A stretch of DNA of 57,171 nt from the NCBI GenBank assembly GCA_014384545.1, contig JACNFQ010000052.1, forward strand, positions 1 to 57,171, read 5' to 3'. Source of the stretch: a bacterium. Its GTDB lineage: Bacteria > UBP7 > UBA6624. The notes beneath the pieces are model-generated. The model worked only from the letters and a program-made list of their open reading frames with translations, had not been told where the DNA came from and did no database searches. Position 1 is the first letter of the stretch. Every line of letters begins with the position of its first letter. Shown piece after piece: positions 15,230 through 30,988 of this stretch. Position numbers and translations under genes: made by a program.

Positions 15230-16024
15230 TTATCCCTCTTTCTTCTTTGCTGCTTGATCGTCCAAGAAAGAATGTACTTTCTTCTTTGATGCGGGCAAAG
15301 ACCAAGACTCTGCAAAGAAGGAGGCTTCCGCTTCTAGCCCCGCACACAACCCCCTTTCAAGTGGCATTTGAAGTGCTTTCTTTGCCAGTGCAATGACATC
15401 GGGGTCTTTCGCAACGATAGGCGCCAAGAAAGCGAATGTCTCTTCTAAAAGGTCGCTATGGGCAACCGCCTTGTGAACCAAGCCCATTTCAAGCGCTTCC
15501 TTTGCGCGAAACTGCCTACCAGTCAAAACCAAATCCAACGCAGTAGGTCTCCCGACTAAGCGCGTAAGACGCTGAGTACCCCCCCAACCAGGGATTAGAC
15601 CGAGGTTGACTTCAGTCTGCCCAAACCGTGCACGCTTACTGGCAATCCGAAAATCACAACAAAGGGCAAGCTCTAATCCACCACCCAAACAGATGCCGTT
15701 GATAGCAGCGACCGTTACTAGGGGTATTGATTCAAACATCCCCCAAACCCGAATACCTTTCTTAGAGAGAGAGTGGGCACCAACGCTATCTTGCTCAATA
15801 AGTTCGGGTAAGTACGCCCCTGTTGAAAAGACGGGTCCACACCCCGTAAGAACGACCGCGTGTAATCGGTCGTCATTTGTAGCATTATTCAAAACCAGCT
15901 CTGTCTCTTCCAAAAGGGCATCAGATAAATTGTTTAGGGGATTGCCCGCCCACACAATCCGAACCACAAGCACTCTCTCTTGCTCAATCGCAGCCTCGAT
16001 GTAGTCTCCTTTATATGGGAACAC
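15230..16024 (-). CDS. Enoyl-CoA hydratase/isomerase (crotonase) family protein
   Basis: 264 residues. The crotonase fold shows the oxyanion-hole segment GPVFSTGAYLPEL, INGICLGGGLELALCCDFRIAS with the first catalytic Glu, and ARFGQTEVNLGLIPGWGGTQRLTRLVG with the second. Both catalytic glutamates of hydratases are therefore present. It probably hydrates 2-enoyl-CoA; a 3-hydroxyacyl-CoA dehydrogenase is encoded at 53913-54794. The start is GTG at 16022-16024, sharing one base with the herA stop, so translation is coupled. Confidence 0.85.
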   Translation of the reverse strand: MFPYKGDYIEAAIEQERVLVVRIVWAGNPLNNLSDALLEETELVLNNATNDDRLHAVVLTGCGPVFSTGAYLPELIEQDSVGAHSLSKKGIRVWGMFESIPLVTVAAINGICLGGGLELALCCDFRIASKRARFGQTEVNLGLIPGWGGTQRLTRLVGRPTALDLVLTGRQFRAKEALEMGLVHKAVAHSDLLEETFAFLAPIVAKDPDVIALAKKALQMPLERGLCAGLEAEASFFAESWSLPASKKKVHSFLDDQAAKKKEG

Positions 16025-17808
16025 TAGAACTTGAACTCAACCCCTCCCTTTTTCTTCCACTCCGCCGCCTTGGGTGCTCTCTTCTTACCCCTGTCAATCT
16101 CTTCCTTGCTTTGGAGGTAAAGGTCACCAGGGACACAGGGTGGGTAAGGGAATTGCATAATGACTGGTTGACTAAACCGTGCATGTTTCAAAAGGAGCGT
16201 TCCCTTAGGGAAAATCGCCATCTTGGACTTCACCTCTTCTGGCAAATAGGCGTAATCGGGTAGACCCAACTCGGTGGGTCCCGACCTTCCATAACAGAGG
16301 GTACTGGAGTTATCCGTAACCTGCTTGTCAATCATGGAGGCAAACTGTTCTGCTCCAAAAAGGGTAAGTCCCAACGACCGACCCCGTGCTGTGGCATGGA
16401 CAATCGCTTCCTTGAGGCTCGTTTCACTATCCGCAGGGGCAAACTTATTCAACTCATCCACAAAGACGATGATGTTATCTAGTCCTTCGGTTTCGGTCTT
16501 CTTTTCAACGAGTTCCGCCAAGCGACGCAATGTGCGTTCAAAGACCATTTTTTGCCCCCTCTCATGGAGAGCTTGGATATCAATTACGAAGATGTCTCCC
16601 GTCTGGAAATCATCCAAAGGAATGTCTTTGGGCTCCTCAGGAATGTCCCTTGAGTTCACCAATCCTTGGAAAAGGTCAGGGAGTGTCACGATGTTCTGAA
16701 CCAACTTGAAGAAGACCGTGCGCGTATGCCCATGCCAATGTTCTCTATCCCTCATCACCCGCCGCTCTTCGGTTAGGAAATCTACCAAATCAGGGAAATC
16801 GGACAGGGTATCGTCCTTATCTACGATATCCAGTAGATCCTCGTAGGCTGCTTGGACATTGTCATCCCAGTCCTCCTTCTCAAAAAGGTTGGGTAAGTAT
16901 CGGCGGAGTTCAGGAATATCCCAGAGGAAAACTTCTACTTTTCCGTCTTGACGCAAACAGTTCACCTTTGCTGTGGTATGCCCAGCATAGGGTGCAAAAA
17001 TACGGATTTGGTCAAAAGGTTCCGCTGGTACACCTAACTCTTTGTAGATGCGACGGTAGTAATCCCCCCGTTCGCCCACTTCATCAAGTTCGGGGTTCTT
17101 CTTGTCTAAGAACAGAAGATCCTTCCCTTTGACATTGAAGAGAACGATCCCAATGCGCCTCTTACGATAGGCATCGTTTTTCTTGAAGAAAGTCTGGACA
17201 CTCTTTAGCATAAACTCCACCAAACTTGTCTTTGTAGCCAAACCCGAGATACCACTAATATTGAAGTGGGCGCCTTCGGGCCCCAATAGAAACTCCACAT
17301 CTAAGAAGATCGGTGTGAGTTGCCCATCACCATTCTTGATAACACCGATGGGAACACCCCTGTCTTCGATGTATCCCTCCATCCCAAAAGCACGGCGAAT
17401 TCCCCCGGGGCTGGCGTAGTAGATGCTGGCTCGGGTAACGGGGCGGGCACGCTTATCCGTAGAGCCGATGATATTGGCACGCGCCACTATCACCTCAGAA
17501 ATATCTGTAGGAAGAGTTTGCTCGGGTCGACCAAAATCATGACTAATGAAGTCTGAAAGAAAGTTGGGCATATCCATTGTGGAACGGAGGTCAACAACGA
17601 CACCAAATGTAATGTGTCCATCTGCCCGAACTGCAGCAACGATATTTCCTAGTTCTAGGTTCTCTTCTTGGCGAGAAAGCCAAAAATGGAAGAATGACGA
17701 GGTGTTCGGGTTTTCGGCTGTACTTGCACCCTTCCCTACGGGACCATGGAACTCGTTGATATAACCCCGATAGTCCTCGGTTGCTAACTGAATTTTATTC
17801 TCGGTCAC
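16024..17808 (-). CDS. herA: HerA-like hexameric DNA-translocase ATPase
   Basis: 594 residues from a GTG at 17806-17808 preceded by AGAAGGA at 9 nt. A longer open frame runs back into nurA and was rejected. The N-terminal beta-barrel (HAS-barrel-like) has LGNIVAAVRADGHITFGVVVDLRS. The FtsK/HerA ATPase domain has Walker A GISGLATKTS (186-195), Walker B VFVDELNKFAP (448-458) and ATARGRSLGLTLFGAEQFAS. HerA pumps DNA and partners the NurA nuclease in archaeal end resection. The nurA gene lies 50 nt upstream, so a HerA-NurA resection complex is likely. The insert of about 200 residues between Walker A and B is large. Confidence 0.85.
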   Translation of the reverse strand: MTENKIQLATEDYRGYINEFHGPVGKGASTAENPNTSSFFHFWLSRQEENLELGNIVAAVRADGHITFGVVVDLRSTMDMPNFLSDFISHDFGRPEQTLPTDISEVIVARANIIGSTDKRARPVTRASIYYASPGGIRRAFGMEGYIEDRGVPIGVIKNGDGQLTPIFLDVEFLLGPEGAHFNISGISGLATKTSLVEFMLKSVQTFFKKNDAYRKRRIGIVLFNVKGKDLLFLDKKNPELDEVGERGDYYRRIYKELGVPAEPFDQIRIFAPYAGHTTAKVNCLRQDGKVEVFLWDIPELRRYLPNLFEKEDWDDNVQAAYEDLLDIVDKDDTLSDFPDLVDFLTEERRVMRDREHWHGHTRTVFFKLVQNIVTLPDLFQGLVNSRDIPEEPKDIPLDDFQTGDIFVIDIQALHERGQKMVFERTLRRLAELVEKKTETEGLDNIIVFVDELNKFAPADSETSLKEAIVHATARGRSLGLTLFGAEQFASMIDKQVTDNSSTLCYGRSGPTELGLPDYAYLPEEVKSKMAIFPKGTLLLKHARFSQPVIMQFPYPPCVPGDLYLQSKEEIDRGKKRAPKAAEWKKKGGVEFKF

Positions 17809-17858
17809 AAGTCGTTGTCCTTCTTCTATTTTACTCTTATTCTTTCTGTTATCTCTAT

Positions 17859-18848
17859 CTAGACAGCCATTGCTCCATGTAGATACCACTTGATTGTCTC
17901 CGTTTTGGGGAGGTGGTTTGTCAAGAACTCGGTGCAAACTCTCACAGGATATATGAGCCTTTCCCACTTGGGGCGGGGGTAGGCAACAGGGTTTCGTAGG
18001 GCAAATACCCGTCGAGAAATCACGTCCACCTCGGTAGGGGGAATGGGATACCCAGAATAGATCTCGGGGCGAACAAGTCCAAAACTGGATGTATGCCCCA
18101 TCGGCTGCCTAATGCGGAGAAACCAAGATGTTATTTCGGCGCCTAGATCGTTCCTAAAAGTGAAAAGGGCGCTCCTCTCTCCATACCCAAGGCTATGTGT
18201 CCGCCGTTGTTGCTCGGAAGACAAAAAGAGAGGGTGGTTGTCCTTACATAACCCCACGGCGTGGGGCACACCCTCTGGTAGGTGCGAAAGAGAGCCATCA
18301 ACAAGAATCGTCTCTTGCCCACCCCTCTCTTTGACCCAGTCCAGCAGATGTTCCGATTCCAACTTGTGACGCAACTTACGAACCGCAAAGACTGCAGATC
18401 TTCGTTGGTCAGAAAAATACCCCGATTTTGCCCCCGTGTCGGTAAATCCTTCAGGAAGAGCACACCCTAGATGGGATTGCGAAAGGAGACCAAACTCTTC
18501 AATTCGTGGAGGACCAAACATCTGGAAGCCATTCCTTGTGGTTTGAATAATCAGACTGGCAATGATCGCATAGTGAACAGCAAGCCGCGTATCCCCCAGT
18601 TCGCACGCCCCCACTAGATGTGTGTGCTGAATCCCATCCATAAACCAAGCAATCTTCTCTTCTCCTCCTTCTAGAACCCCCTCTAGGGGTTGGATGATTC
18701 CCCCTTCATGTACTGTGGTGTTTTCCCTTAGATCAAGCCGAGAAGGTCCAAACGCCATCTCTTCAATATGATCTGCCGCAGCAATCTCCCCACCAGAGTC
18801 CACAAGAAAACGGCGAATCAGTTTCAGCTTGTCGGCAAGAAAGGGCAC
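17859..18848 (-). CDS. nurA: NurA-domain nuclease
   Basis: 329 residues from GTG 18846-18848, no good Shine-Dalgarno visible. An N-terminal acidic stretch is followed by KIAWFMDGIQHTHLVGACELGDTRLAVHYAII, a central ETILVDGSLSHLPEGV (typical NurA Asp-Gly-Ser motif), and SLGYGERSALFTFR...WFLRI...YPRPKWERLIYPV towards the end. NurA is a manganese-dependent 5'-3' nuclease that sits on the HerA ring. Identification rests on these motifs and on herA next door. It is the first gene of the minus-strand run; the 187-nt gap to the porin gene should carry divergent promoters. Confidence 0.75.
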   Translation of the reverse strand: MPFLADKLKLIRRFLVDSGGEIAAADHIEEMAFGPSRLDLRENTTVHEGGIIQPLEGVLEGGEEKIAWFMDGIQHTHLVGACELGDTRLAVHYAIIASLIIQTTRNGFQMFGPPRIEEFGLLSQSHLGCALPEGFTDTGAKSGYFSDQRRSAVFAVRKLRHKLESEHLLDWVKERGGQETILVDGSLSHLPEGVPHAVGLCKDNHPLFLSSEQQRRTHSLGYGERSALFTFRNDLGAEITSWFLRIRQPMGHTSSFGLVRPEIYSGYPIPPTEVDVISRRVFALRNPVAYPRPKWERLIYPVRVCTEFLTNHLPKTETIKWYLHGAMAV

Positions 18849-19035: not shown

Positions 19036-20064
19036 ATGAGACAGAAAAACGGAACAAGAAAAATACTCTTGGCTTTGTTGATTCTGACCCCGGTCGCTCT
19101 AGTGGCAATACCGGTGGGCGGAACAGATGTTTCTCTAAAAGGAGATGTCAACTTTAGGTATATTGACAACGATGGAGATACCGTTGGGGATAGTGCGGCT
19201 AGCGAACTACGCATCCGTCTCTTTGTTGGTGCAAAACTCACCGAATCGTTTTCGACAAATGCGGTGCTTTATGTCACTAGTAACCCACCCAACACAATTG
19301 CCGAGATTGGGAGTTCTTTGGGGGGGTCGATGGTCGCTGGTCCCGCCTATGTGACTTGGCACAATCCTTGGGGAGATTTAAAGGTAGGAAGGTTACACGC
19401 CAAGATGATTGGGAATAACTTGGTGGATAACACCGATATCTTTCATCAGTTCCAACTAGGCGTTTTCCATGGTGCTTTTGCTAGCTTCAATGACTTCAAT
19501 CGCTGGGACTTGGATTTCTATCTAAGAGAATCAAATGGTGTTGGTGCAACGGACGAAGGGCTTGCTTGGGGTCTCACCGTAGGTTTGGATGAGATGCTAG
19601 GTAACAAAGTGCACTTTGGGACAATCTCCTATGACAGTGATTATGCTTTACCTGGCAACTATCCAGCAGCACTAGCAGCGACCTACGATGGATTCCGTGC
19701 TTTTTATGCAGGTGCTTCTATCGGGCTGTCAGATATCACCGACCTGAACCTTGAGTGGATTTCTGGTTCTCAAGACAACTTGGGTGGTGGTTCAACCGAA
19801 GGAACTGCGCTCTTGAGCAGACTAGTTTACCCATTGGGAGATGACCTTTCCTTGGGTGTCGCTTATGGAACGATGGAGCCAGGAGCTACCATTGATGGTC
19901 TCTTTGGTGAGGCAGTTGCAGGAAACCCCGCATCAATGGATGGAGATATGTTGCGGTTTGATCTTCGTTGGAAGAACTGGACATTTAGCTTTATCAACTG
20001 GGAGGATGACTTGGCGGCTCAACAGGATACAGTTCTGCGTGCCGAATACCACATCAAATTCTAG
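19036..20064 (+). CDS. Outer-membrane beta-barrel (porin-like) protein
   Basis: 342 residues from ATG 19036, preceded by TTAGGAGG at 7 nt. A signal peptide (RKILLALLILTPVALVAIPVGG) precedes many alternating amphipathic strands ending in an aromatic or charged terminus (LRAEYHIKF), as expected of a barrel. Segments such as DVNFRYIDNDGDTVGDSAASELRIRLFVGAKL resemble porin or alginate-export-type barrels. It stands 1 nt before the Rieske start, so it belongs transcriptionally to the respiratory cluster and may be the pore for nitrate or nitrite; that role is inference. Confidence 0.7.
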   Translation: MRQKNGTRKILLALLILTPVALVAIPVGGTDVSLKGDVNFRYIDNDGDTVGDSAASELRIRLFVGAKLTESFSTNAVLYVTSNPPNTIAEIGSSLGGSMVAGPAYVTWHNPWGDLKVGRLHAKMIGNNLVDNTDIFHQFQLGVFHGAFASFNDFNRWDLDFYLRESNGVGATDEGLAWGLTVGLDEMLGNKVHFGTISYDSDYALPGNYPAALAATYDGFRAFYAGASIGLSDITDLNLEWISGSQDNLGGGSTEGTALLSRLVYPLGDDLSLGVAYGTMEPGATIDGLFGEAVAGNPASMDGDMLRFDLRWKNWTFSFINWEDDLAAQQDTVLRAEYHIKF

Positions 20065-20065
20065 T

Positions 20066-20530
20066 TTGAACCCGTCGGAGAAGGCCAAAACCCCAAAGAC
20101 TGGCGTTGATCGCCGGGGGTTCCTTGCGCGGGCGTTGGCTATTGGCGGAGCTGCTGTCTCTTATGCGACCTTTGGTGGCTTCGCCCTCCGTTTCTTATAT
20201 CCCGATACCACGGGTGAAAAGAGACGGATGTACCTCGCGTCGATCTCTTCGCTTCCTAAGGGAAAAGCTGTTGTCGTTTCAACACCCTCAGGAAAACGAG
20301 TCGTTGTCTTGAATACCGCCGACGGCATTCGTGCATTCTCTACAATTTGTCCTCACTTGGGGTGCCAAGTACACTGGGAAGATGAAAATAACCACTTTTT
20401 CTGCCCTTGCCACAGCGCCGTGTTTGATCCCACAGGAAAGGCAATGGAGGGCCCCCCTGCTTCAGATGGAAAAGATATGTTGGCAGTGGAGATTGCCTTA
20501 GAAGGAGATGGTGTCTTCGCCTGGGTATGA
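20066..20530 (+). CDS. Rieske iron-sulphur protein of a cytochrome bc complex
   Basis: 154 residues from TTG 20066-20068, one base after the barrel stop. A twin-arginine-like segment DRRGFLAR (15-22) precedes the membrane anchor IGGAAVSYATFGGFALRFLY. The 2Fe-2S ligands are CPHLGC (95-100) and CPCH (113-116), followed by the Pro-loop region GPP. It passes electrons from quinol at the Qo site of cytochrome b to a c-type cytochrome. Here the cytochrome b gene overlaps by 4 nt and the c-type protein downstream is an octahaem cytochrome. Confidence 0.92.
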   Translation: MNPSEKAKTPKTGVDRRGFLARALAIGGAAVSYATFGGFALRFLYPDTTGEKRRMYLASISSLPKGKAVVVSTPSGKRVVVLNTADGIRAFSTICPHLGCQVHWEDENNHFFCPCHSAVFDPTGKAMEGPPASDGKDMLAVEIALEGDGVFAWV

Positions 20531-21564
20531 GTGGTTTCTGGCGTTCACGCATGCCCGTCAATGAAGAGGCGATAAAGGAGTTTGGTTCCGAGGCGGTTCC
20601 TGGACACCTGAAGAGATGGTGGTTTGCCCTAGGTGGCACACCAGCCTATCTCTTCATTGTCCAAGTATTTACGGGGATACTCCTTACTTTCTACTACATT
20701 CCCAACCCCGAAAAAGCCTATGATTCTGTCAGGTATATTACCGAGACAGTACCTTTTGGATGGTATATACGGGGGATGCATTTGTGGGGGTCTCACCTGT
20801 TGATTGTCGCTGTGATTCTCCATATGATGCGTGCGTTCTTTACGGGAACTTACCGAAAGCCCCGCGAGTTGACGTGGGTGTTGGGAGTCCTCCTCTTGCT
20901 ATTGATGATGGGGATGGGTTTCACAGGGTACAGTCTCGTTTACGAGCAGCTCTCCTATTGGGGGGCAACTGTGGCAAGCAATCTTACCGAGTCGGCACCC
21001 GGGATTGGACCGATCTTAGCAAACTTCATTCGGGGAGGTGCTGAAATTGGAGAAAACACACTTACCCGGTTTTATATCTTCCATATCGCTGCTGTGCCCA
21101 CCTTACTCGTTATGGTCTTGGCGGGTCATATTTGGATGGTGCGGACCCATGGTGTGAAAGAGCTTCATTTTGAGGATGAAGAGGAGTCGGAAAAGGGAAC
21201 ATTCCCCTTCTTCCCTAATCATTTCTTGACAGAGTTGCTCGTAGGTCTGGTGTTGATGGTTCTTCTATCAACACTCTCGGTTGTTTTCCCGGCTACTTTA
21301 GCAGATCCAGCAAACCCCTTAGTCACCCCCGAACATATCAAACCCGAATGGTATTTCCTCTTTACATTTAGGTGGTTGAAGTTAGCTGGTACAGATATGG
21401 CTATAGCCACAATGGGTCTATTTGCGCTCCTTTTTGTAGGGTGGCCTTGGGTGGACAAGTTGTTACGAAAGAAGAATCCTTCTAGTGAGGCGAGTGTGTT
21501 GATTGGAAGCCTCGTTACTTTGGGCTTGGTGGGGATGACGATGTGGGAGATATTCTCAGGTTAG
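20527..21564 (+). CDS. Cytochrome b (b6-type with fused subunit IV region)
   Basis: 345 residues. Haem ligands are His85/His99 (14 apart) and His186/His201 (15 apart); the latter spacing is the b6 rather than mitochondrial bc1 pattern. KPRELTWVLGV follows the first helix pair, as in b6. The Qo-site PEWY motif is at 273-276 in IKPEWYFLFTFRW. About seven membrane helices are evident, so one chain covers b6 plus subunit IV. It oxidises quinol in the inner membrane. The stop is followed after 15 nt by the octahaem cytochrome gene. Confidence 0.93.
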   Translation: MSGFWRSRMPVNEEAIKEFGSEAVPGHLKRWWFALGGTPAYLFIVQVFTGILLTFYYIPNPEKAYDSVRYITETVPFGWYIRGMHLWGSHLLIVAVILHMMRAFFTGTYRKPRELTWVLGVLLLLLMMGMGFTGYSLVYEQLSYWGATVASNLTESAPGIGPILANFIRGGAEIGENTLTRFYIFHIAAVPTLLVMVLAGHIWMVRTHGVKELHFEDEEESEKGTFPFFPNHFLTELLVGLVLMVLLSTLSVVFPATLADPANPLVTPEHIKPEWYFLFTFRWLKLAGTDMAIATMGLFALLFVGWPWVDKLLRKKNPSSEASVLIGSLVTLGLVGMTMWEIFSG

Positions 21565-21579
21565 AAAAGGAGTAGATAG

Positions 21580-22992
21580 ATGGCAAGACATATGAGTCTC
21601 AATAGAAAGCAGGTTGTCGTTGGCACCTTGGGGTTGGTCTTTTTAGCCTCCCTTGTTGTCGTGGCTTGGGTAGAAGGAGGAAAACTCCGTTTCCAGCCCA
21701 AACCCGAACCTATCATTTCTAGTGAAAATGAAGGATGTGTTGCGTGTCATACCGAAAAAACCCCTGTGATTGTTCAACAATGGGCAGATAGTGAACATGG
21801 TCAATTAGGGGTGGGGTGTATTGGGTGTCACCAAGCCGAAAAGACGGATGTTGATGCGTATCGCCACGAGGGTGCTTTGATTGCAACGATCGTTACCCCC
21901 AATGATTGTGCGCGATGCCATGCCCAAGTTGCTGAAGAGTTCCAAGCAAGCCACCACGCCAAGGCGGGGGATATCTTGAACTCATTGGACAATATATTAG
22001 GGGAAGTTATAGAGGGGGTGCCAGCTGCGACAAATGGTTGTATCCAGTGCCACGGATCCAAAGTCGCACTCTTGACTGACGCGAATGGCAATGTACGGAA
22101 GGATGACGGCGGTCGACCGATGTTTGATCCTTCTACTTGGCCCAACTCAGGGATGGGACGCATCAACTTAGATGGAAGTCTTGGTTCTTGTTCCGCCTGT
22201 CATAGTCGACACACTTTTTCTCGCGCTATGGCTAGACAACCCGAGAACTGTGGGAAGTGCCACATGGGACCAGATCACCCGCAGATTGAGATCTACAACG
22301 AAAGTAAGCATGGTATCGCCTATGCCGCTTCTTCAGATGAAGATATGAATCTTGACGCTAAGAAATGGGTTGTGGGAGAAGATTACTTTGCAGCCCCCAC
22401 CTGTGCCACCTGCCATATGAGTGCCACACGCAACTTACCCGTTACTCACGATGTGGGCGACCGCATTTCATGGACGCTTCGTCCCAAGATATCTAAGCTA
22501 CTGGAAAACCACGAAGAGCGCCGCAGTCGGATGAAGGATGTGTGTGAGGCTTGCCACAGCCCTGGATTTACTCGGGGTTTCTATAAGCAATACGATGAGG
22601 CGATTCATCTGTACAACGACAAGTATGGGGGCCCCTCAACGACGATCATGGGGATGTTGAAAGAGAGAGGGTTGATTTCTCCCGATCCATTTGACGATCA
22701 TATTGAATGGGTCTATTTTGAACTTTGGCATCACGAAGGGAGACGCGCTCGGATGGGAGCCTCCATGATGGGACCAGACTACACCCAATGGCATGGTTTC
22801 TACGAAGTGGCTAAGCACTTCTACTTCAAGTTCCTTCCAATGGCCAAAGAGCTGTCTGAAGGGGACGAAGTGGCAATGGCATTGATAGACAGCATTCTCG
22901 CATCAGAAGAACACGCTTGGCTAGACGGGTTGTCCCTTGAGGACAGGGAGCGGCTAAAAGCGTACTACAAAGAGCGCTACGGCGACGAGTAG
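21580..22992 (+). CDS. Membrane-anchored octahaem c-type cytochrome, hydroxylamine oxidoreductase family
   Basis: 470 residues with an N-terminal membrane anchor (12-30) and eight CXXCH sites starting at Cys53, 80, 110, 154, 204, 224, 275 and 322. Segments GSCSACHSRHTFSRAMA, CGKCHMGPDHPQIEIYNESKHGIAY, PTCATCHMS and VTHDVGDRISWTLRP are the hallmark of the HAO/octahaem nitrite reductase family. A C-terminal MMGPDYTQWHGFYE (Tyr401) lies in the region where HAO has its haem-crosslinking Tyr, but equivalence is unproven. The anchor and the adjacent cytochrome b/Rieske genes suggest electrons come from quinol. It could reduce nitrite or hydroxylamine, oxidise a nitrogen compound, or relay electrons to NapA. 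Confidence 0.88.
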   Translation: MARHMSLNRKQVVVGTLGLVFLASLVVVAWVEGGKLRFQPKPEPIISSENEGCVACHTEKTPVIVQQWADSEHGQLGVGCIGCHQAEKTDVDAYRHEGALIATIVTPNDCARCHAQVAEEFQASHHAKAGDILNSLDNILGEVIEGVPAATNGCIQCHGSKVALLTDANGNVRKDDGGRPMFDPSTWPNSGMGRINLDGSLGSCSACHSRHTFSRAMARQPENCGKCHMGPDHPQIEIYNESKHGIAYAASSDEDMNLDAKKWVVGEDYFAAPTCATCHMSATRNLPVTHDVGDRISWTLRPKISKLLENHEERRSRMKDVCEACHSPGFTRGFYKQYDEAIHLYNDKYGGPSTTIMGMLKERGLISPDPFDDHIEWVYFELWHHEGRRARMGASMMGPDYTQWHGFYEVAKHFYFKFLPMAKELSEGDEVAMALIDSILASEEHAWLDGLSLEDRERLKAYYKERYGDE

Positions 22993-23016
22993 CCAGGAGG
23001 AATAAGGAGGAGCGAA

Positions 23017-25503
23017 ATGGCATTAGTATCTTTGATAATAACTAAGGAAGGTAAGGAGAGTGTGCGTGTGCTGGAGGGTGGTGATCTTGAAACCCTTGAC
23101 GCACAGATAGAAGCGATAAAGGCATCTGGCGAGGCTGATGATGTCAAGCCCGTTTTTATGAGTATTGAGAGGGCTGATTTTTCCAGGCGAGAGTTCCTCA
23201 AGCGCACAGCTTATACATTTGCTGCAGCTTTGATCCTGCCCACTTTCTCTTCTTGTGCTCCCTCCCTACAGCAATCGGCCGAGAAGATTCTCCTTTCGGA
23301 CCCCACCGTCAAGTGGAACAAGTCCACCTGTAGATTCTGCGGTGTGGGGTGTGGGGTAATGGTTGCAACGAAAGCGGGAACCGTTGTGGCAGTAGCAGGA
23401 GATGAAAAAAACCCTGTAAACAAGGGGCTTCTTTGTGTCAAGGGTTACCATCTTCCATCCATCCTTTATGGCTCGGATAGGCTTAAGAAACCCCTTGTAA
23501 GGAAGAATGGTGAGTTGGTGGAGACATCTTGGGACGAAGCTCTCTCTTTGGTTGCGTCCAAACTGAGTGAAACTCTCCAAACGAAGGGGCCTCGAGGTGT
23601 CGCGTTCTATGGTTCTGGTCAGTGGACTATCCAAGAGGGGTATGCGGCGAGCAAATTTATGCGCGCAGGCGTAAAGAGCAATCACCTAGAGGCAAACGCC
23701 AGGCTTTGTATGGCTTCAGCGGTTGTGGGTTTCCTTTTGTCCTTTGGGAAAGATGAACCAATGGGACCTTATGACGACATAGAGAAGACAGACAACTATG
23801 TGTTGTGGGGAAACAATATGGCGGAAATGCACCCCGTTCTTTTCTCTCGCATGCTAGAGAGACGAAAGAAAGCAAGCCATGTCAAGATTGTGGACCTTTC
23901 TACCCGAACGACCCGCACCTCGCAAGCTTCCGACCTCCATATTCTCTTCAAGCCCCAATCAGACTTAGCGATTGCTAATGGGATTGCGAATCTCCTAATA
24001 GAGAAGAACAAGATTGATAAAGATTTTGTCTCTAAGCACTGCAACTTCTCCGCTGGAAAAGAAGATATTGGGTATGGGTTGGAAGACAAGTTCGCGTTCA
24101 AGAAAGAGTCCCGTAAGCTTAGCTTTGAAGAATACGCTGCCTATGTTGCTGAATACACCCCCCAGCGTGTAGAAGAGATTTCTGGGGTATCTCCCAAGAA
24201 CCTAGCGACTCTAGCAGAGATTTATGGAGATCCCAATAGTGGCGTGGTCTCCTTTTGGTGTATGGGTGTGAACCAACATACAAGGGGTACTTGGATGAAC
24301 AACCTCATCAACAATCTCCATCTTTTGACAGGGAAGATCTCAAAGCCTGGAAACAACCCCTTCTCGCTTACAGGGCAGCCATCTGCGTGTGGAACGGTTC
24401 GTGAAGTGGGAACACTTGCTCACGCTCTCCCTGGCGGGCGAAAAGTCACAGTGCCAGATCATCGTGCTGATGTAGAGAAGGCTTGGAATGTGGAAGAGGG
24501 AACGATTCCCGATTGGGTGGGATACCATACAGTGGAGATGTTCCGTGCGGTTGACAGGGGTGAAATAGGATGGATGTGGATTCAGACAACGAACCCCATG
24601 GTGTCGATGCCCAAGTTGGGCAGGTATCTCAAGGCGATGGAAGATCGAAAGACCTTTCTCGTTGTTTCCGAAGTCTATCCCACGCCCACATCAGCTGTGG
24701 CGGATGTTGTCTTTCCCACCAACCTATGGGTTGAGAAAGAGGGTTGTTTTGGGAATAGCGAACGGCGCACCCAACAATGGGATGCAATTGCTACGCCTCC
24801 CGGTGAGGCGAAAAGCGATCTGTGGCAAATCATTGAAGTTGCAAAGCGTATGGGTTGGCACCATCTCTTTGAAGGGAACCACCCAGAAGAAGATCTCTAT
24901 GAGGAATATCGACAACTCACATTGGGGCGGGGCAAGGATGTTGCCCCCTACGAAACACTGAAAAAGACGCGAGGCATGAGATGGCCCGTTGTGGACGGGA
25001 AAGAGACCCTATATCGGTATAGGGGCGGAGAAGATCCCTATGTGCCAGACGGTGAAGATGTCTATTTTTACGGCAAGCCCGATGGAAAAGCTGTCATTTG
25101 GGCTCGCCCTTGGGAGCCTGCCCCTGAGATTCCTGATGAAGATTACCCCTTGTGGCTTTGCACGGGGAGAGTGTTGGAACATTGGCATACAGGATCGATG
25201 ACACGCCGTGTTCCTGAGCTACACGGCGCTATGCCAAAAGGTTTCATTGAGATACATCCTGAAGATGCAACTCTTCTTGGCATTCAAGACGGACAAGAGG
25301 TTCGCCTGACTAGCCGAAGAGGAGAGATTACTCTTCCTGCCTCAATAGGTGAAACCGCCCGGGGCACGCCCCCAATGGGGTCCGTCTTTGTCCCCTTCTT
25401 TGACGAGTCAAAACTAGTCAACCTTGTGACCCTAGATAGTTTCTGCCCCTTATCAAAAGAACCTGATTACAAGAAGTGTGCGGTAAGAGTCGAAGCTGTA
25501 TGA
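23017..25503 (+). CDS. napA: Periplasmic nitrate reductase catalytic subunit with N-terminal extension
   Basis: 828 residues from ATG 23017 with strong upstream GGAGG sequences. Residues 1-54 are an unusual cytoplasmic extension. A twin-arginine signal SRREFLK (56-62) and hydrophobic stretch follow, ending FSSC. The 4Fe-4S ligands are Cys105, 108, 112 and 140 (then Val-Lys), and the molybdenum Cys231 lies in NARLCMASAVVGF, the NapA pattern. Molybdopterin-binding segments and the C-terminal beta-barrel (PLWLCTGRVLEHWHTGSMT...LRGEI-like) are complete. It reduces nitrate to nitrite in the periplasm. No separate napD or napC gene is seen; the extension may do the NapD job. Confidence 0.92.
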   Translation: MALVSLIITKEGKESVRVLEGGDLETLDAQIEAIKASGEADDVKPVFMSIERADFSRREFLKRTAYTFAAALILPTFSSCAPSLQQSAEKILLSDPTVKWNKSTCRFCGVGCGVMVATKAGTVVAVAGDEKNPVNKGLLCVKGYHLPSILYGSDRLKKPLVRKNGELVETSWDEALSLVASKLSETLQTKGPRGVAFYGSGQWTIQEGYAASKFMRAGVKSNHLEANARLCMASAVVGFLLSFGKDEPMGPYDDIEKTDNYVLWGNNMAEMHPVLFSRMLERRKKASHVKIVDLSTRTTRTSQASDLHILFKPQSDLAIANGIANLLIEKNKIDKDFVSKHCNFSAGKEDIGYGLEDKFAFKKESRKLSFEEYAAYVAEYTPQRVEEISGVSPKNLATLAEIYGDPNSGVVSFWCMGVNQHTRGTWMNNLINNLHLLTGKISKPGNNPFSLTGQPSACGTVREVGTLAHALPGGRKVTVPDHRADVEKAWNVEEGTIPDWVGYHTVEMFRAVDRGEIGWMWIQTTNPMVSMPKLGRYLKAMEDRKTFLVVSEVYPTPTSAVADVVFPTNLWVEKEGCFGNSERRTQQWDAIATPPGEAKSDLWQIIEVAKRMGWHHLFEGNHPEEDLYEEYRQLTLGRGKDVAPYETLKKTRGMRWPVVDGKETLYRYRGGEDPYVPDGEDVYFYGKPDGKAVIWARPWEPAPEIPDEDYPLWLCTGRVLEHWHTGSMTRRVPELHGAMPKGFIEIHPEDATLLGIQDGQEVRLTSRRGEITLPASIGETARGTPPMGSVFVPFFDESKLVNLVTLDSFCPLSKEPDYKKCAVRVEAV

Positions 25504-26009
25504 GGAGGATCTTCCTAGTAGTAACGACCACCTTGCTCCTAGGGGGGTGTGGGGACGGTGGTGATCCCCGTCCTGGCACACGTGCTTACGCTGGGGCACC
25601 TCCGACGATACCTCACCAAGTGGAATCGCTGGGTCGAGGAAACTGTCTGGGTTGCCATGGGGCGGGGTTAGAGGTCTCGTTAGATGGTGACAAACAGAGG
25701 GGGCCAGAAACACCACACCCTAATCAACTCTCTTGCCGACAATGCCATGTCGTCTCTTCTGGAGAGAGCGTTGCATTTGGCCATACGATCTTTCAAGGTG
25801 CCCTTCCCGGGAAAGGTGGAAACCGTAGCCACCCTATCGCCCCACCCCTGATACCGCACCCTCTTCAAAACAGGAAGGAATGTCTCTCTTGCCATGGGGA
25901 CTTAGGGGATTTAAAAGCTCCAACGAGCTCTCACCAAGATCGTCTATCTTGTTCCCAGTGCCATATCCCCTTAAACCCAGAGCTAGGGGCTTGGCTTCCG
26001 CCTAAGTAG
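25500..26009 (+). CDS. Tetrahaem NapB-like cytochrome c lipoprotein
   Basis: 169 residues from ATG 25500, overlapping the napA stop (ATGA). A lipoprotein signal ends LLLGGC (Cys17). Four CXXCH sites begin at Cys49, 79, 128 and 151. The protein reads as two similar halves: APPTIPH-CLGCH-TPHPNQLSCRQCH and APPLIPH-CLSCH-SSHQDRLSCSQCH. Each half resembles the dihaem NapB pattern (P-x-IPH ... CxxCH ... CxQCH). It most likely carries electrons to NapA in the periplasm as a lipid-anchored partner. NapB itself is normally dihaem and soluble, so this is a doubled version. Confidence 0.82.
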   Translation: MRRIFLVVTTTLLLGGCGDGGDPRPGTRAYAGAPPTIPHQVESLGRGNCLGCHGAGLEVSLDGDKQRGPETPHPNQLSCRQCHVVSSGESVAFGHTIFQGALPGKGGNRSHPIAPPLIPHPLQNRKECLSCHGDLGDLKAPTSSHQDRLSCSQCHIPLNPELGAWLPPK

Positions 26010-29636: not shown

Positions 29637-30281
29637 GTGATGGTGAGGCTGATTGTGGGAGCGGTTCTCGTCTTGGTAGCCGTCTTTCTCGTCCTTGTGA
29701 TGCGGGCAACGAAGAAGCGGAGGGAAGAGATGGCGATGGTGGCAGAAGCGTTGGGTTGGGGTTTTCAACCCCATAGGTTTTCTCTAAAGGGCAAACCCTA
29801 CGCCCGCCTGCCGTTGCTGCGGAGGGGGTCATTCGGAACCAACGCCCTCTTGAAAGAAGGGGAAGCCGTCTCTTTCTTTGATTTTACCTATGTGGTCCAT
29901 ACGGGCAAGAGTTCCCAGGCTGTCATCCAAACGGTCGCTCTCTTCCAGTCTGAGGGTGACCTCCCGCGATTCTCCCTAAGGCCCGAACACTTTGGGGATC
30001 GCATAGCGTCCAAACTGGGCTGGAAGGATATTGACTTTGAAGATGAAGAGGACTTCTCAAACGCCTACTTCCTGAAGGGGAAGGACGAATCCGCTGTGCG
30101 GAGCCTCTTCAACTGGCACTTGCGTGATCACTTGTCCAGAGAACAGGGATGGTCCCTAGAGGGCGAGGGGCACTGGGTGCTGATTTACCGCCATGGCAAA
30201 CGCGCTTCGCCCGGAGATTATGCCCGGTTCATAGAAGCGACAGAGACGCTCTTTGGCTATCTGGAGAAATCGACCCTCTAA
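29637..30281 (+). CDS. Membrane-anchored protein of unknown function
   Basis: About 214 residues from GTG 29637 (ATG 29640 is equally possible). One N-terminal membrane helix (LIVGAVLVLVAVFLVLVMRA) is followed by a basic stop-transfer (TKKRREE) and a cytoplasmic domain with LGWGFQPHRFSLKGKPYARLPLLRRG, FFDFTYVVHTGKSSQAVIQTVALFQS and FSLRPEHFGDRIASKLGWKDIDFE. This anchored design with a 'phi-x-D-phi-x-Y...QTV' core occurs in several uncharacterised bacterial proteins. I cannot assign a function. Its stop overlaps the convergent SURF1 stop by 4 nt. Confidence 0.6.
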   Translation: MMVRLIVGAVLVLVAVFLVLVMRATKKRREEMAMVAEALGWGFQPHRFSLKGKPYARLPLLRRGSFGTNALLKEGEAVSFFDFTYVVHTGKSSQAVIQTVALFQSEGDLPRFSLRPEHFGDRIASKLGWKDIDFEDEEDFSNAYFLKGKDESAVRSLFNWHLRDHLSREQGWSLEGEGHWVLIYRHGKRASPGDYARFIEATETLFGYLEKSTL

Positions 30282-30988
30282 TCTCTAAGTTTTCTCTGGA
30301 AGGAAAGTCCAGCCCATAAGGCGTAGCCAAGAACGAGGACCACCCCACTAAACCACGTAATGGCGTAGGGAAGGTGCGGGGTATCTCGGACGGGCAATGT
30401 CCATCCAGTAACAGGTAATGAGGGGCTAGGTGGATGCCCTGCGGGGTCTTTTTCTTTGCCGACAATAACTGACCAACCCAATAGCGACAGCCCCAAATCG
30501 GCTGCCATTTCCTGGGGGGCAAAGCCTCGCCAATGGTTTCCCTCTAGACGGGGATTACCTTTCCACGCAGGCAAGAACGCTGCAATCCCATCAATCCTGT
30601 CATTGGTGGGGAGGGCATCTAAGTGAGTCTCAATTCCCTCTTGGGGTAGCCACCCACGGTCAACCAAGATTGCGTAATCAGGATTACCACCCACCAAGAA
30701 TCGCATGACCACCCTAAAGCCAGGTTGACTACTTTCGAAATACCCCACCACAAGTTGAGGTTTTCCTACAAATTCACCCTCCAAAACAACCAACCTGCGA
30801 CCCCCTTCCATAGGGCCACCCCCCGCCAATACCTCCTCGTTCTCTAAGGGTAGCAGCGCCAGTTCTTTGTGGGCAATAGCAAGCAATTCTTGTTGTTCTT
30901 GGTGCCGCTCCCATTGCCACATCCCCAACGAAGAGAAGAGTGTCAATGCCCCCACAACGGCAACCCATCCCAGTACTGTTCTAGCCAT
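30278..30988 (-). CDS. SURF1 family protein
   Basis: 236 residues with the SURF1 layout. The first membrane helix is WVAVVGALTLFSSLGMWQWERHQEQQ (the LGxWQxxR signature). A periplasmic domain contains LEGEFV, VVMRFLVGG...ILVDRGWLP and RLEGNHWRGF. The last helix is HLPYAITWFSGVVLVLGYALWAGLSFQRK (HxxYAxTWF signature). SURF1 proteins help assemble haem-copper cytochrome oxidases. No oxidase genes lie in the window, so the partner is elsewhere. It is transcribed divergently from the acetyltransferase with a 35-nt gap. Confidence 0.88.
   Translation of the reverse strand: MARTVLGWVAVVGALTLFSSLGMWQWERHQEQQELLAIAHKELALLPLENEEVLAGGGPMEGGRRLVVLEGEFVGKPQLVVGYFESSQPGFRVVMRFLVGGNPDYAILVDRGWLPQEGIETHLDALPTNDRIDGIAAFLPAWKGNPRLEGNHWRGFAPQEMAADLGLSLLGWSVIVGKEKDPAGHPPSPSLPVTGWTLPVRDTPHLPYAITWFSGVVLVLGYALWAGLSFQRKLRD

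Follow-up and report, generated by a model that had tools for sequence, protein, structure and literature searches.

A gene module that joins a Rieske/cytochrome b complex, an HAO-family octahaem cytochrome and a periplasmic nitrate reductase may support proton-motive nitrate and nitrite respiration in a UBP7 bacterium

We propose that five genes from a bacterium of the phylum UBP7 (lineage UBA6624) form an operon for the respiration of nitrate and nitrite. In it, a proton-motive Rieske/cytochrome b complex would replace NapC and would feed both an octahaem nitrite reductase and, by way of a tandem NapB, the nitrate reductase NapA. All in all we consider this probable. The genes are on the forward strand of what we will call the window, which is the entire stretch of 57,171 nucleotides that was analysed (contig JACNFQ010000052.1 of assembly GCA_014384545.1). 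As a preliminary description of this DNA had it, they encode a Rieske protein, a cytochrome b, an octahaem cytochrome c, NapA, and a tetrahaem cytochrome c, in that order and all on one strand (20066-26009; Table 1). Judging from sequence comparisons, the family assignments are secure for the Rieske protein, cytochrome b, and NapA, and they are clear for the octahaem protein (HAO superfamily) and the tetrahaem protein (NapB). The concept has already been published for one organism, Caldithrix abyssi. Within the literature that we searched, what is new is the breadth of the synteny, a compact variant without NapGH or NapM, the tandem NapB, and the conserved low-potential Rieske residues.

Table 1. 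Genes of the operon and the gene just upstream of it (positions in the window).
Feature	Position	Strand	Remarks
Porin-like outer-membrane beta-barrel, putative	19036..20064	+	start ATG 19036 or TTG 19018
Rieske [2Fe-2S] protein	20066..20530	+	TTG start; Tat-type anchor; PF00355 E 5e-13
Cytochrome b, fused b6 + subunit-IV parts	20527..21564	+	PF00033 (Cytochrome_B) 2e-53; PF00032 (Cytochrom_B_C) 3e-10
Octahaem cytochrome c	21580..22992	+	Multi-haem_cyto PF13447 6e-29; 8 CXXCH
NapA, periplasmic molybdenum nitrate reductase	23017..25503	+	NF010055 1014 bits; TIGR01706 984 bits
Tetrahaem lipoprotein, tandem NapB	25500..26009	+	NapB PF03892 2.5e-8, two stretches; 4 CXXCH

Since this order of genes is also seen in other phyla, we do not think that the operon is a chance arrangement. 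Most of its genes had been described as overlapping by 1-4 nt. This is right for two of the four junctions (4 nt each, ATGA). At the remaining two, the genes are separated by 15 and 24 nt, and good ribosome-binding sites (AAGGAG and AAGGAGG) are present. The porin-like gene does end 1 nt before the TTG of the Rieske gene, and it is probably the first gene of the transcription unit. Its position suggests that it may belong to the system; searches of Pfam and NCBIfam gave no match for it. Bacteroidota loci have a porin-type gene (PF13372) in the equivalent position, and we rejected the idea that the two are homologous, as phmmer gave no match between them. The count of FNR-like sites was not above chance. 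Elsewhere in the window, two overlapping genes on the reverse strand (16024-18848; 647 and 329 amino acids) have no Pfam match and, by eye only, look like a helicase/nuclease pair.

The host assembly is 1.39 Mb, with 79% completeness and 0.01% contamination. The contig also carries genes for CTP synthase and MetRS, and the G+C content of the operon (50.5%) is that of its surroundings (52% for the window), so mis-binning is unlikely. Nor does the G+C content give any sign of recent import. The octahaem protein and NapA are both absent from the two other genomes of the phylum that we examined. The genome also encodes the oxidase gene COX1, on other contigs; a SURF1 family gene (oxidase assembly) is on the reverse strand of the window at 30278-30988.

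The usual electron donors to Nap were not found. In the 79%-complete genome, a search with PF03264 (NapC/NrfH) gave no match, and the best match to the NapH model TIGR02163 scored 26.6 bits against a cut-off of 213; all that the genome yielded for NapH were ferredoxins below the cut-off. NrfA, NapD, and Hcp were also looked for in the genome and none was found, and the operon contains no NapG, NapH, or NapM. A NapC or NapGH set elsewhere in the genome had been named beforehand as evidence against the idea that a bc-type complex stands in for NapC. We saw no such set in the 79% of the genome that is covered, and this, along with the widespread synteny described below, bears the idea out. Missing genes may of course lie in the remainder. 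Similarly, no full-length NrfA was found in 28 genomes whose octahaem gene falls within or close to the Rieske/b clade (the best match was partial, at 30 bits), with the qualification that these genomes are incomplete and that the comparison lacks a baseline from genomes without the module. The lack of NrfA in genomes with the module fits with the octahaem protein being a nitrite reductase.

The Rieske protein and cytochrome b look like the core of a b6-type complex: they have the Rieske ligands CPHLGC...CPCH, the bis-His pairs, and the PEWY motif of the Qo site. In the cytochrome b, the spacings of the haem His pairs are x13 and x14, as in the b6 type, and there is no N-terminal Cys for haem c-n. 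Canonical high-potential Rieske proteins have the motif CPCHGSxY. The cluster loops of the window's protein are CPHLGC and CPCHSAVF, with Ser replaced by Ala and Tyr by Phe, and the linked Rieske proteins examined are much the same (Ser is missing from 36 of 36 and Tyr from 35 of 36). Yeast Rieske mutants lose about 130 mV and about 65 mV, and these losses are roughly additive (PMC12954380). Given these losses, and because both of the hydrogen-bonding residues are gone, we predict that the potential of the window's Rieske protein is low and suited to menaquinol. This is not certain, as the rule is not strict: Kustd1480 is without the Tyr, yet has a potential of +335 mV (PMC12954380). Homologues of MqnA and MqnD, which are genes for futalosine-type menaquinone synthesis, are present in the genome. 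A second Rieske/b complex is encoded on another contig (C68; L094:689-4800). Its Rieske protein is of the high-potential type (CPCHGSKY), its cytochrome b is split, and its large subunit has 7 CXXCH motifs. It seems that the genome keeps one Rieske/b complex of each potential tuning.

There is no gene for cytochrome c1 or f in the operon, and in all of the linked loci the third gene is that of the octahaem protein. Among solved structures, IhOCC (4qo5) and HAO-family proteins are closest to this protein. The model predicted for it is of moderate confidence (pLDDT 72); its top fold matches are 4qo5, HAO, HOX, Kustc0457/0458, and HDH (Z about 10-13), and other multihaem enzymes were far worse. 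Like the window's protein, IhOCC from Ignicoccus and Kustc0457/0458 from Kuenenia (6h5l) have the HAO fold and no cross-linking Tyr, but they are only about 20-32% identical to it over the aligned parts, and they come from other organisms and have other partners.

Tyr401 had been suggested as the equivalent of the cross-linking Tyr of HAO, and we reject this. The column of NeHAO Tyr467 holds Trp404 in a multiple alignment and Gln403 in a profile alignment, two to three residues away from Tyr401, so the protein lacks the cross-linking Tyr of nitrifier HAO. In the multiple alignment, Met396 is eight residues before Trp404. The eHao proteins of Campylobacterota have as their signature a Trp at the position of the cross-linking Tyr, with a Met eight residues before it (PMC8940962, citing Haase 2017). 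Trp404 and Met396, together with the distal pair Asp232-His233, are present in 38 of 38 Rieske/b-linked octahaem proteins, and they are invariant in the stand-alone proteins as well. By these residues we classify the octahaem protein as a reductive HAO of the eHao type. We rely on the signature rather than on a tree for this because, when HAO, HDH, and IhOCC are included as references, the reference branches are too long (about 6 changes per column). Most likely, the octahaem protein reduces nitrite, either to ammonium or to hydroxylamine.

The octahaem protein had also been described as anchored, and the predicted model agrees: there is a long and confident helix near the N-terminus (residues 7-37), which we take to be a membrane helix. 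In a rough check of motifs, 30 of 38 linked octahaem proteins had no cleavage site, and most of the stand-alone relatives had an AxA site or a lipobox. Because the window's protein has a loose match to such a site (VVA), its anchor is likely rather than proven.

NapA exceeds both of the NCBIfam equivalog cut-offs (Table 1), and it matches E. coli NapA (2nya) with E 5e-258, with CRFCGVGC and NARLCMAS aligned. Before its Tat motif there is an N-terminal extension of about 50 residues (23017-23172), behind a strong ribosome-binding site, which is missing or shorter in relatives. We considered whether the extension might be a fused NapD and rejected this, as we found only short chance matches (the query was an approximate E. 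coli NapD sequence). As for the tetrahaem protein, each of its halves has the NapB pattern (A)PPxIPH...CxxCH...CxxCH, and the halves score 108 against each other, as compared to 40.6 +- 7.9 for shuffled sequences in which the haem motifs were left in place. A profile of six tetrahaem sequences matched NapB structures first (3ml1, 1jni, and 1ogy), and a lipobox Cys (Cys17) is invariant in six of six. By its sequence, then, the tetrahaem protein is a NapB duplicated in tandem, and a predicted lipoprotein.

To see how widely these genes occur together, we took the 80 best-scoring relatives of the octahaem protein from a scan of genome contigs. Cytochrome b immediately precedes the octahaem gene in 37 of these 80, which come from about ten phyla; the recurring order is Rieske-cytochrome b-octahaem, with a membrane-anchored octahaem protein. 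NapA is directly 3' of the octahaem gene in 17 of the 37 cytochrome b-linked loci among the best 80. In two more loci (L009 and L081), the contig stretch begins at the octahaem gene, and NapA is next in both. The search for this arrangement that had been recommended thus found it to be widespread. The exact order Rieske-cytochrome b-octahaem-NapA-tandem NapB is found in KSB1 (L030 and L045) and in Acidobacteriota (L066 and L073). Bacteroidota and their relatives have Rieske-cytochrome b-octahaem-NapA-NapG-NapH-NapB. Overall, one Rieske/b-octahaem module has three types of NapA attached to it: a short NapA with a tandem NapB; a NapA of 930 amino acids with NapG, NapH, and NapB; and a third type that is nearby in loci from Calditrichota and Ignavibacteria. 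On the other hand, loci from Nitrospinota, Planctomycetota, Poribacteria, and Anammoxibacter have the Rieske/b-octahaem genes and no Nap within the stretch that was seen. Because of these loci, and because many octahaem proteins (in Acidobacteriota) are without Rieske/b, the role of the octahaem protein is not tied to Nap.

Pairwise identities of the Rieske, cytochrome b, and octahaem proteins also covary (r 0.87-0.92, or r 0.94-0.95 with NapA; 0 of 2000 permutations were as high), although these correlations are inflated by near-identical loci from Bacteroidota. In a tree, the Rieske/b-linked octahaem proteins are mostly together, apart from a large stand-alone group from Acidobacteriota, and linkage to Rieske/b requires 10 label changes as compared to 28 in shuffles. 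One concern had been that the octahaem protein would prove to be an ordinary HAO whose relatives lie apart from cytochrome b and napA. Instead, the signature of nitrifier HAO is absent, and within the Rieske/b clade the octahaem gene of most relatives is still next to cytochrome b. No relative of the octahaem protein was found in the viral contigs that were searched. In the stand-alone loci from Acidobacteriota (L020, L024, L044, L047, L050, L052, and others), the octahaem protein is by itself, mostly with a cleavable signal, and no gene for an electron donor is evident nearby. Also, one KSB1 contig (L031:3-9497) has two consecutive Rieske/b clusters, one with a distant cytochrome with 9 CXXCH and a hexahaem protein, and the other with an octahaem protein.

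In the mechanism that we favor, menaquinol would be oxidised at the Qo site of the Rieske/b complex. One electron would pass over the b haems, which would allow energy to be conserved in the manner of a bc complex. The other electron would go from a low-potential Rieske protein directly to the anchored octahaem cytochrome, which would be the third subunit of the complex, in place of cytochrome c1 or f, and which would reduce nitrite to ammonium or hydroxylamine. In the nitrate branch, electrons would go to the lipid-anchored tandem NapB and from there to NapA. One Anammoxibacter locus (L038:1471-5101) encodes a tandem NapB followed by Rieske, cytochrome b, and octahaem proteins, with no NapA in the contig, which suggests that the Rieske/b complex itself is the partner of the tandem NapB. 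The Bacteroidota operon additionally encodes NapGH, so that NapA need not be fed by the Rieske/b complex in that group. In its strongest form, the proposal is of one stable complex in about ten phyla, in which the HAO-family enzyme is both the acceptor of Rieske electrons, replacing c1 or f, and the terminal nitrite reductase, and passes electrons through the double NapB to NapA, for a proton-motive nitrate ammonification with a low-potential Rieske protein tuned to menaquinol. We put this form forward only tentatively.

Could the octahaem protein be an electron relay only? It would then replace c1 or f on a path from the Rieske protein through the tandem NapB to NapA, and nitrite would be excreted or reduced elsewhere. 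A fixed place beside cytochrome b and a membrane anchor would suit a relay, nitrate respiration does not need a second enzyme for nitrite, and the Anammoxibacter locus has the tandem NapB and the Rieske/b-octahaem genes. We think this unlikely, because a relay need not keep the distal Asp-His pair and the Trp and Met of eHao, yet these do not vary in linked or stand-alone proteins, and because no full-length NrfA was found in the 28 incomplete genomes with the module. It also seems improbable to us that two systems share one operon, with Rieske/b and the octahaem protein reducing only nitrite while NapA and the tandem NapB are fed by another quinol dehydrogenase or by the second Rieske/b complex. 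We did not find NapC, or NapH above its cut-off, in the 79%-complete genome, and the tandem NapB can occur beside Rieske/b and the octahaem protein without NapA, as in Anammoxibacter, which links it to this complex. Still, Nap can be missing beside Rieske/b-octahaem, Bacteroidota have NapGH beside the module, and the UBP7 genome does have the second complex with its 7-haem subunit. Finally, that the octahaem enzyme is oxidative (acting on hydroxylamine or another nitrogen compound, with Rieske/b running in reverse or accepting its electrons) would fit with the HAO fold and family and with the presence of COX1 and a second Rieske/b complex, but it is very improbable given that Trp404 is in the column of the cross-linking Tyr, that the enzyme is linked to NapA rather than to a system for ammonia oxidation, and that there is no haoB-like partner such as the one in locus L004.

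Our preferred reading, a Rieske/b complex that feeds both nitrite and nitrate reduction, has precedents. A cluster of genes for Nap, Rieske, cytochrome b, and eHao in C. abyssi (Cabys_2564-2556) was the subject of a prediction in 2017, and its authors propose that Rieske/b passes electrons to NapM and/or eHao, which would take nitrate to ammonium (PMC5317091). Both organisms have Rieske, cytochrome b, the octahaem eHao, and NapA clustered together without NapC. However, the cluster of C. abyssi includes NapG, NapH, and NapM, whereas the operon in the window has none of the three; of the two, only the operon in the window has a lipid-anchored tandem NapB; and the gene order differs. Also, C. 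abyssi has ACIII, while the UBP7 genome has the second Rieske/b complex.

Another precedent is Campylobacter jejuni, in which the Qcr genes are located apart from nap. In 2018, Qcr was shown to be required for nitrate respiration by Nap, with an H+/2e- ratio of 2 (PMC6195509). As in our reading of the window, a bc-type menaquinol complex serves periplasmic nitrate reduction, NapC is absent, and the process is electrogenic. Unlike the complex that we propose, Qcr is a general bc complex that is also used for oxygen respiration, and the abstract of that study mentions no octahaem subunit (PMC6195509).

A likeness to the Rieske/b complexes of anammox bacteria, which the preliminary description brought up, holds in part. 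In Kuste4569-4574, too, a cytochrome b of the b6 type is encoded together with an HAO-like octahaem protein, but there b6 and subunit IV are split, an extra multihaem c and an NAD(P) oxidoreductase are present, and the Rieske protein, at +303 mV, has both Ser and Tyr (PMC12954380). The operon in the window has a fused cytochrome b, Ser changed to Ala and Tyr to Phe, and NapA, and it has neither the NAD(P) oxidoreductase nor the extra multihaem subunit. Systems of eHao/HaoA with a NapC-type partner share with the window a reductive octahaem protein of the HAO type, with the Trp/Met signature, that is fed from the quinol pool. In those systems, however, the quinol dehydrogenase is a tetrahaem NapC/NirT, which is not proton-motive, as opposed to Rieske/b. 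For example, in plasmids of Desulfosarcina and Desulfobaculum (L002:7395-9413 and L003:7422-9419), a NapC/NirT cytochrome adjoins a related octahaem protein.

Nap and the cytochrome c nitrite reductases are generally not regarded as energy-conserving in themselves. If both were fed by a bc-type complex dedicated to them, the route from nitrate to ammonium would become proton-motive. That both hydrogen-bonding residues of the Rieske protein are consistently lost leads to a testable prediction of redox tuning. And because the module is common in uncultured groups where NrfA was not found, it would escape any survey of nitrate ammonification based on nrfA alone.
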